Positions 61,168-64,000 of a DNA stretch of 64,000 nt are shown piece by piece. Each line of letters begins with the position of its first letter. Within the stretch, counting starts at the first letter, position 1. Origin of the DNA: Planctomycetota bacterium (GTDB lineage: Bacteria > Planctomycetota > UBA8742 > UBA2392). A model generated the notes under the pieces. The model worked only from the letters and a program-made list of their open reading frames with translations, searched no databases and had not been told where the DNA came from. The stretch lies in NCBI GenBank assembly GCA_015075515.1, contig JABTUE010000004.1, forward strand, positions 372,001 to 436,000, in the 5' to 3' direction. The position numbers and the translations under genes were made by a program.

Positions 61168-63017
61168 GCGCGGGCGGGGGCAAACGTTCTGGCGGCCTGG
61201 GCCAGCTCGGCGATCATTTCATATCGGCCCATGGGCGTGATCAGGTAATAGCCCTGCACATGCGGGGCAATGCCCTGCATCATCTCGCGCGCGATGGCCA
61301 CGCCCTCGGCGCGGCCTTTGGCGCCGGACTTGCCGGCCATGCGCGCGCGCACGGATTCAGGCACCCTGATGCCGGGCACCTCGTTGTGCAGAAACTCGGC
61401 GTTGCGCTCGCTGACCAGCGGCATCACCCCCAGAATCAGCGGCAAACCCAGCGTTGCCGTGGCGTCGGCCACGCGTCTGGCGGTTTCAAGGTCAAACACC
61501 GGCTGGGTCATGATGAAGCGCGCCCCGGCCTGCATCTTGCGTTCAAAGCGCCTGACCTCGTTTTCGAGCTTCAGCGAAGCGCAGTTGAACGCGCCGCCCA
61601 CGTAGAAGCCGGTCTGAAACGGCTCGCCCCGGCCGGCGGTGAACTCGCCCCGGTTGAAGCTGCTGATCATCTCAATCAGCTTGTGGCTGGCCATGTCGAA
61701 CACGCCGCTGGAACCCTTGTACGCCTGCGTCGCCACCGGGTCGCCGGTTACGGCCAGAATGTTCGTGATGCCCATGGCGTAGGCGCCCAGCAGGTGGCTT
61801 TGGGTTCCGATCAGGCTGCGGTCGCGGCAGGCCACATGCAGCACGATGCGCACATTGAGTTCACGCGTCAGAATCGCCGCCAGCGCCAGGTTGCTCATGC
61901 GCATGACCGAAAGCGGGTTGTCGGCAATCGTAATCGCGTCCACGCCGGCCTCGACAAGCTTGCGCGAACCGGCGACTTCTTCGGCGGCGTCAACGCCGCG
62001 CGGCGGGTCTACTTCGGCGATTACCACGCGGCGCTGGCGCAGGTCGGCCTCGAGTGTGGCCTGGCGCGGAAACGCGGCCGAGGGCGCCGGCGCCGCGGCG
62101 CGTCTGGGTTCGGCGTGCACCACGGGCTGGCGGATCGAGGGCCTGCGCCCGCCCGCCAGAGCCTTGAGCCGGCGGATGTCATCGGGTGTGGTGCCGCAAC
62201 AGCCGCCGATCAGGTTCGCGCCCAGATCGGCCAGACGGCGCGCGCTTTTGGCAAAGTAGTCGCCGCTTTCAATGTAAACCGGGCGGCCCAGATCATCGAA
62301 ATCCGCCAGGCCGCGGTTGGGATAGATGCTGATCGGTTTGGTCGTGAGCTCCACCAGCCGCTTGAGAACTTCGATCGCCGCGGTTTCGCCGCCGCCGCAG
62401 TTGGCGCCGATCACGGCTGCGGGCGATGCGTTCAGGGCATTGGCCATGCGCTCGGGCGACACGCCGGTGGTGGTGGTGCCGGCCAGCGTGAACGCCATCT
62501 GGGCGACAATCGGCGTGCTGGGCAGGGCCGCGTGCAGCGCCGCCACGGCAAACAGCAGGTCTTCAAGGTCGCTGTAAGTTTCCAGCAAAAGCGCGTCCAC
62601 GCCGCCGTCCACCAGCCCCCGGGCCTGCTCAACGACCACTTCGGCGCGTTCGTTGTCGGGCAGTTTCGAGGCCGCGCGGCTGATCGGCCCGATGGTGCCC
62701 AGCACATAGGCGCTGTCGCCGGCGGCCTCGCGCGCCAGTTTCGCGCCGGCGCGGCAGATTTCGGCCGGCGTGGCAGTGATGTCGGCAGCCGCCAGGGTAA
62801 AGCGGTCGGCGCCGAAGGTGTTGGTTTCGATCACTTCACTGCCGGCGGCGATGTATTCGCCGTGGGCGGCCTGGACAAAGCCGGGCTTGAGCAGGTTCAG
62901 CACCGGGCCGATGTGCCCGTGCGCCAGCAGCCCGCGGCGCGAAAACAGCGTGCCGTAGGCGCCGTCGCCGATCAGCACGCGGCGTTTGAGCGCATCCAGA
63001 AAGGGCTCTTGTGGCAT
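61164..63017 (-). CDS. Bifunctional homocysteine S-methyltransferase / methylenetetrahydrofolate reductase
   Basis: 617 residues. The N-terminal ~290 residues are a homocysteine methyltransferase barrel (IGDGAYGTLFSRRGLL, ETNTFGADRF, with zinc cysteines in IGANCGGGE and LIGGCCGTTPDDI). The C-terminal ~300 residues are a MetF-type flavoprotein (VVIAEVDPPRGVDAAEEVAG, NILAVTGDP, GARFIMTQPVFDLETARRVA). The architecture is that of Bacillus YitJ, which links folate C1 units to methionine. It heads the metF-plsY-gpsA gene string. TATAGT lies eight bases before the ATG, with no ribosome binding site. Confidence 0.95.
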   Translation of the reverse strand: MPQEPFLDALKRRVLIGDGAYGTLFSRRGLLAHGHIGPVLNLLKPGFVQAAHGEYIAAGSEVIETNTFGADRFTLAAADITATPAEICRAGAKLAREAAGDSAYVLGTIGPISRAASKLPDNERAEVVVEQARGLVDGGVDALLLETYSDLEDLLFAVAALHAALPSTPIVAQMAFTLAGTTTTGVSPERMANALNASPAAVIGANCGGGETAAIEVLKRLVELTTKPISIYPNRGLADFDDLGRPVYIESGDYFAKSARRLADLGANLIGGCCGTTPDDIRRLKALAGGRRPSIRQPVVHAEPRRAAAPAPSAAFPRQATLEADLRQRRVVIAEVDPPRGVDAAEEVAGSRKLVEAGVDAITIADNPLSVMRMSNLALAAILTRELNVRIVLHVACRDRSLIGTQSHLLGAYAMGITNILAVTGDPVATQAYKGSSGVFDMASHKLIEMISSFNRGEFTAGRGEPFQTGFYVGGAFNCASLKLENEVRRFERKMQAGARFIMTQPVFDLETARRVADATATLGLPLILGVMPLVSERNAEFLHNEVPGIRVPESVRARMAGKSGAKGRAEGVAIAREMMQGIAPHVQGYYLITPMGRYEMIAELAQAARTFAPARA

Positions 63018-63031: not shown

Positions 63032-63182
63032 GGCAAAAGCGCCCGCCGCTACAGGGGCGTAAACGGCACGCCCGGCAAGACGCGCCAGCCGATCAGGGCC
63101 ACCGGCGGATTCGGATCCAATTTTCTGCCGCCCGCTGCGAAAAACCGGCATTGTAGGTAGAGGCAGAACCCGGAGAATCTCC

Positions 63183-64000
63183 ATGCGAACAGCCACAGGA
63201 TTGTGCCTGATGCTTTGCCTTTGCCTCGTTGCTCAGGCCCAGACCCCGGACAACCGGGCCGTTGCGGATGCCGGCGCCACCCAGCCGGTTGTTGCCGCCG
63301 ATGCCGAAGGCAAGCTGTATGTGGCCTACGCCGCAGGCGAACCGCGCCAGGTGTTTCTCAAGACAAGTACCGATGGAAAAACCTGGTCCGAAGCCGAAAA
63401 AGTTACCGTGGATGCCTTTCAGGTAATGGCCGGAATGACCCGCGGTCCCCGCCTGGCGGTAACCAAAGATGGAACCATCGTCGTGACCGCCTGCGCCAGA
63501 CTGCGCAAGGACGACGAAGTACACGTTTACTGCTATCGCAAGGGTCCGAAAGACAAGACCTTTGCCGGCACGCGCGTTACCACGGCGGCGGCCAAAGATC
63601 ACGAAGGCATGCACGACATGGTCGCCGACGCCGAAGGTGACATCCACGTAACCTGGCTGGACGGTCGTGAGGCCACGCGCGGCAACCATCTGTGGTACGC
63701 GCGCAGCAGCAACGGGGGCAAAACTTTCAAGGGCGAAGTGATGGTCTACAAGTCGCCTTCGGGTTCGGTCTGCCCGTGCTGCGCGCCAAGCATCGCGACA
63801 AGCGCAAACGGCAAGACGGTGGTGATCCAGTTCCGCAATAAACTCAAGGCCTCCGGCGGCGGCCCCGACGTGCATGACATGTACACGGCTGTCAGTACCG
63901 ACGAAGGCAAAAGGTTCGCCACCGCCCGGCTGGACGACCGCGAACGCTGGAAGGGCTGACCGATGGACGGAGGGCAGGTTGCCCTGAGCACGGACGGATC
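63183..64000 (+). CDS. Secreted BNR/sialidase-like protein with in-frame TGA, candidate selenoprotein (3' truncated)
   Basis: The ATG at 63183 follows GGAGAA. A Sec signal peptide (GLCLMLCLCLVAQAQ) precedes BNR-type propeller repeats (FLKTSTDGKTWSEAEK, LWYARSSNGGKTFKGE, MYTAVSTDEGKRF), a metal- or redox-like CPCC motif (SGSVCPCCAPSIATSANG) and RLDDRERWKG. At 63957-63959 a TGA follows, after which the same frame stays open to the window end and reads PMDGGQVALSTDG. In related sialidase-like proteins, as I recall the family, the segment is W...CPxDGxxLAxD, so TGA stands exactly at the conserved Cys. With the hairpin downstream this suggests selenocysteine. If TGA is a stop the product is 258 residues ending at 63959. 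Nonsense mutation or sequence error are the alternatives. Confidence 0.8.
63971..63985 (+). promoter_or_regulatory. Candidate bacterial SECIS-like hairpin after the in-frame TGA
   Basis: AGGGC (63971-63975) pairs with GCCCT (63981-63985) around a 5-base loop AGGTT. The loop G-U (63978-63979) lies 21-22 bases downstream of the T of TGA. In E. coli fdhF the SECIS loop AGGUCU has its key G-U at almost the same distance. A further CCG/CGG pairing (63960-63962 with 63991-63993) could close a lower stem. It lies within the coding frame, as bacterial SECIS elements do. Confidence 0.5.

Follow-up and report, generated by a model that had tools for sequence, protein, structure and literature searches.

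Introduction

The 2026 catalogue of prokaryotic selenoproteins lists 119 families (PMC13188914), which share the use of UGA as selenocysteine (Sec), Cys homologues, a SECIS-like hairpin and Sec machinery. Some of these proteins handle metals (CopZ-family 2Fe-2S copper chaperones, an E1-E2 ATPase and a putative mercuric transport protein), and in these Sec lies at soft-metal cysteine motifs. In CopG (DUF411), a thioredoxin-like periplasmic protein linked to copA/cusCBA, the conserved CxCC motif and two Met bind a tetranuclear copper cluster; no Sec is described in that report (PMC7558416). GH33 sialidases and BNR-repeat propellers (Pfam BNR_2) have a beta-propeller fold, and GH33 enzymes use a Tyr nucleophile.

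Here we describe a gene that shares the four selenoprotein features with the catalogued families, the CxCC motif with CopG and the propeller fold, as predicted, with the sialidases. That fold is unrelated to those of the metal-handling selenoproteins and differs from that of CopG. Invariant cysteines, a metal-resistance context and the absence of an invariant Tyr nucleophile distinguish the family from GH33. The gene lies at the end of a 64,000-nucleotide stretch (C4:372001-436000, hereafter the window) of a planctomycetotal genome of 3.87 Mb in five contigs.

Results

The gene starts at an ATG at 63183 on the plus strand, preceded by a likely ribosome-binding site (GGAG, 63172-63175), and meets an in-frame TGA at 63957-63959. 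After the TGA the same frame reads PMDGGQVALSTDG up to the window end at 64000. It stays open beyond the window, for 130 codons past the TGA, completing the propeller, until a TAG at C4:436350-436352 (L009:2350-2352), and the product is 389 aa long. The hydrophobic N-terminus (MRTATGLCLMLCLCLVAQAQ, 63183-63242) is likely a signal peptide, judged by eye without a signal-peptide program. A C-x-C-C motif (CPCC, residues 197-200) is encoded at 63771-63782, the TGA is codon 259 and is followed by Pro260 (UPMDGG), and a SECIS-like hairpin (AGGGC-AGGTT-GCCCT) occupies 63971-63985. The initial annotation, made from the window's letters without database searches, had reported the gene start, the in-frame TGA, the hairpin after it and the CPCC before it, and all of this held. 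The gene looks like a single-gene unit in the window because the neighbour at 62001-63017 (minus strand) is divergent. That neighbour encodes a homocysteine S-methyltransferase-domain protein.

Coding constraint persists downstream of the TGA, with pairwise dN/dS values of 0.19-0.76 and protein identities of 36-69%, and the expectation that the UGA of a bacterial selenoprotein is flanked on both sides by conserved coding sequence is met. In the comparison of the window gene with L021 the downstream dN/dS is only 0.76, a weak signal of constraint that counts against the reading.

Homologues, drawn from 392 scanned Planctomycetota genomes and from GTDB contigs, occur in Planctomycetota, Bacteroidota and Verrucomicrobiota. 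In the first alignment the TGA column is Sec in 11 rows and Cys in every other row. A profile search added a distant branch, with CPVNGP replacing CPMDGG, in which seven further genes have Sec in this column (L139, L140, L141, L142, L143, L144 and L147). Across all 68 aligned homologues the column is Sec in 18, Cys in 50 and never anything else, which meets the second expectation for a bacterial selenoprotein, pairing with Cys homologues at the UGA. The TGA is thus common, at an identical column, to the window gene, two genomes of the same family (L021 and L022) and 15 further genes. The Met that follows Cys/Sec-Pro is replaced by Val in some homologues.

Proteobacterial plasmid relatives retain CSCC/CTCC and GCP; those that share GCPVNGP with the distant Sec branch adjoin CopC, CopD and multicopper oxidase genes. 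A match on a Paraburkholderia plasmid (L108) lacks the motifs and was rejected as a family member. The gene is absent from the only other genome of the window's genus that was searched (G047, an assembly 90% complete), so its distribution is patchy even inside one genus.

The window's genome encodes tRNA-Sec (73 bits, ARAGORN anticodon TCA), SelA (545 bits), SelB (316 bits) and SelD (392 bits), and the requirement for complete Sec machinery is met. SelD is itself a selenoprotein, with a TGA in its GAGUGCK site (L018:1501-2430, minus strand), and tRNA-Sec and SelA are encoded ~1 kb or less apart on the window's contig. Three tandem paralogous proteins of ~255-317 aa adjoin selA (L010:8113-11390), one with a Cys/Gly-rich N-terminal stretch. 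Among genomes with Sec forms, tRNA-Sec was detected in 13 of 17. The other four are incomplete assemblies, with SelA found in G131 and SelB in G280 and G214; G173 was searched for the tRNA only. Many Planctomycetota with Cys forms also carry the machinery, and its presence alone therefore does not predict the Sec form.

The loop of the window's hairpin starts 16 nt after the TGA. In sequence and spacing its GC-AGGTT-GC loop is closely like that of E. coli fdhF, as the initial annotation proposed. Taken alone the hairpin is unremarkable, and its single-sequence fold is not significant (minimum free energy (MFE) -14.6 kcal/mol, z -1.6); support for a SECIS comes from the genes as a group. An Rfam search of the region returned nothing above threshold. 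Our first rule, a GU in the loop, was set after inspecting 11 rows and was failed by four of the seven later Sec rows despite their strong hairpins, so we tested a general bSECIS-style rule. This literature rule asks for a loop of 3-14 nt that starts 16-37 nt after the UGA with a G in loop position 1 or 2. Under this rule the best hairpin has its loop 16-24 nt after the UGA in 16 of 18 Sec rows; L140 and L144 have a hairpin in that range without an early G in the loop. Because MFE z-scores of single sequences hardly distinguish Sec rows from Cys rows, we scored the hairpins instead and compared them with a synonymous-codon null. Median scores are 18.0 for Sec rows and 12.5 for Planctomycetota Cys rows (Mann-Whitney p 3e-5). 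Against synonymous recoding with each gene's own codons, the Sec rows exceed the null (Fisher p 7e-5) and the Cys rows do not (0.76). These p-values are somewhat optimistic because the rows share kinship. The test for a downstream SECIS hairpin (loop ~16-37 nt after the UGA, G in the loop) is met as a group and weakly per row.

Sec and Cys have been exchanged repeatedly at this site. A tree of 52 rows, for which the Cys/Sec column was masked, requires at least seven state changes, five of them forced by well-supported branches, and a 63-row tree that includes distant members requires at least 11, six of them forced. These counts give no direction of exchange. L025 (Sec) shares 71% identity with L029 (Cys), a protein from the same genus. 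L029 (genome G288), the Cys relative nearest a Sec form, keeps a GU-loop hairpin ~21 nt downstream, which could be the relic of an earlier SECIS.

BNR_2 (38.8 bits) is the sole Pfam family over the cut-off, and no NCBIfam model scores above cut-off for the protein. The only hits of a PDB sequence search were WRAP-T chains, matched over repeated weak stretches, and no solved relative emerged. An AlphaFold2 model of a Bacteroidota Cys homologue (25 rows) is all-beta and propeller-like, with a pLDDT of 90, and among solved folds it comes closest to Photorhabdus lectins and sialidases. In an alignment of 28 diverse rows the invariant residues are the three Cys of CxCC, Cys/Sec259, Pro260, Arg162, Arg218, Trp158, Pro35 and Pro89. 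No Tyr occurs among the invariant or 90% columns of this alignment, and the GH33 nucleophile test is not met. The model's secondary structure puts the CxCC loop ahead of the first strand of one blade and the CPM loop ahead of the first strand of the next, and on this basis the two loops should face the same propeller mouth; this is inferred from topology, without coordinates.

Family members recur beside copper and other heavy-metal genes, an adjacency we observed without a formal background test. On an Adhaeribacter plasmid a Cys homologue adjoins two heavy-metal/copper P-type ATPases, in Runella one sits beside a multicopper oxidase and a set of RND efflux genes, and a Spirosoma plasmid has one near bilirubin oxidase, which is a multicopper oxidase. 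The Spirosoma linguale plasmids L103 and L104 carry near-parallel modules of the family gene, DUF326, a YVTN propeller and a methyltransferase; the bilirubin oxidase is in the L104 module. Cys homologues are also found in Sulfitobacter near a mer cluster and fragments of multicopper oxidase, in Methylomagnum near CopC, and in Roseobacter near CopC, CopD and multicopper oxidase. P-type metal ATPases directly adjoin L052, L054 and L074, a CusB/CzcB-type adaptor and a copper ATPase lie alongside the gene of L024 (L099), and CusB/CusA-type genes lie alongside that of L034 (L100). Chromosomal neighbourhoods weigh most, since plasmids are rich in metal resistance. Sec loci, the window's own included, mostly lack metal-gene neighbours. 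The sole clear exception is L159 (genome G199; L159:1572-6368), where genes for an outer-membrane efflux protein and a CzcB/CusB-type adaptor come after the Sec form on the same strand.

The table of the selenoprotein catalogue (PMC13188914) contains no sialidase, BNR or propeller family and no CxCC...UP(M/V) motif, and none of its 119 families matches in both domain and Sec motif. A literature search for selenoproteins with a sialidase or propeller domain found nothing relevant. The selenoprotein family is likely new, with a fold that the current catalogue lacks, although an unpublished database annotation is not excluded.

Discussion

So, is this gene a selenoprotein gene? Comparative genomics makes it nearly certain, in the absence of experiment, that the UGA encodes Sec, and we put at about 0.9 the probability that this is a true selenoprotein with the CxCC and Cys/Sec site as described; there are no data on selenium incorporation. 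The initial annotation had inferred that Sec replaces Cys here, to be refuted by missing Sec genes, a frame closing soon after the window, a misread base at the TGA, or homologues without Cys. None of these came about, and the replacement is supported. Since independent related genomes share the TGA, a sequencing error can in practice be ruled out. General recoding of UGA, already excluded in that annotation, is rejected: other genes use UGA as an ordinary stop, and a full Sec system is present in the genome. The suggestion that Sec pairs with the CPCC cysteines is plausible, given that CxCC and Cys/Sec are invariant together. Whether the site is redox or metal was left undecided; the chemistry is not shown, and gene neighbourhoods favour copper or a similar soft metal.

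In the mechanism we propose, SelA, SelB, SelD and tRNA-Sec would decode the UGA at 63957 as Sec, aided by a bacterial SECIS hairpin that starts ~11 nt downstream of it, and the product would be exported as a sialidase-fold beta-propeller. A single thiolate/selenolate site at the propeller mouth would probably be built from the C-x-C-C loop together with the Cys/Sec-Pro(-Met) loop, as inferred from the model of the Cys homologue. Since CopG binds copper through CxCC and Met (PMC7558416), a Cu(I) thiolate/selenolate site is a natural reading of CxCC plus (C/U)PM. The most likely function of the protein would be to bind Cu(I) or a comparable soft metal outside the cytoplasm, and perhaps also to oxidise it or pass it on, alongside copper export systems. 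We lean, by a modest margin, towards such an extracytoplasmic copper or soft-metal role for the family; it is inferred from gene neighbourhood and the CopG analogy, without metal-binding data.

A thiol/selenol redox enzyme, such as a disulfide or peroxide reductase in which CxCC resolves the oxidised Sec, remains a possible alternative to a metal binder. Redox enzymes are numerous among known selenoproteins (PMC13188914), disulfides could form within CxCC, and one homologue (L061) has a gene for a TlpA-like thioredoxin nearby. However, there is no thioredoxin fold, the motif is CxCC and not CxxC, and the family is repeatedly found beside copper and mercury genes. An active sialidase or other glycoside hydrolase, in which the Sec/Cys would be incidental, is suggested by the BNR_2 match above cut-off, by lectins and sialidases as the nearest folds and by the database name of the homologues, 'sialidase family protein'. 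We consider it very unlikely: the GH33 nucleophile is missing, since no Tyr is invariant or nearly so, the cysteine set is what is invariant, and the neighbours are metal genes, not glycan genes.

The more basic objection is that the UGA is an ordinary stop, leaving a truncated gene or pseudogene with a downstream frame open by chance. The genome does use UGA as a normal stop, and long open frames occur in GC-rich DNA. Against this, the UGA falls at one column in 18 genes and always opposite Cys, the downstream protein is conserved, Sec machinery is present and hairpins are enriched. This explanation is all but excluded.

Our preferred reading, a selenoprotein with a CxCC and Cys/Sec site, can be extended to a bolder one: a widespread and unnamed family of extracytoplasmic propellers with a CxCC plus Cys/Sec soft-metal site for copper detoxification, in which many Planctomycetota repeatedly swap the fourth ligand between Cys and Sec, and Sec is a direct copper ligand. 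This extension is tentative, and we would bet narrowly against it as a whole. Ordinary gene callers would truncate the Sec forms at the UGA. Exchange of Sec and Cys at one site is frequent across Planctomycetota, and a testable function can now be offered for proteins named 'sialidase' in copper-resistance islands. Should Sec prove to be a metal ligand, the Cys and Sec forms would constitute a natural experiment on selenium use at a soft-metal site.
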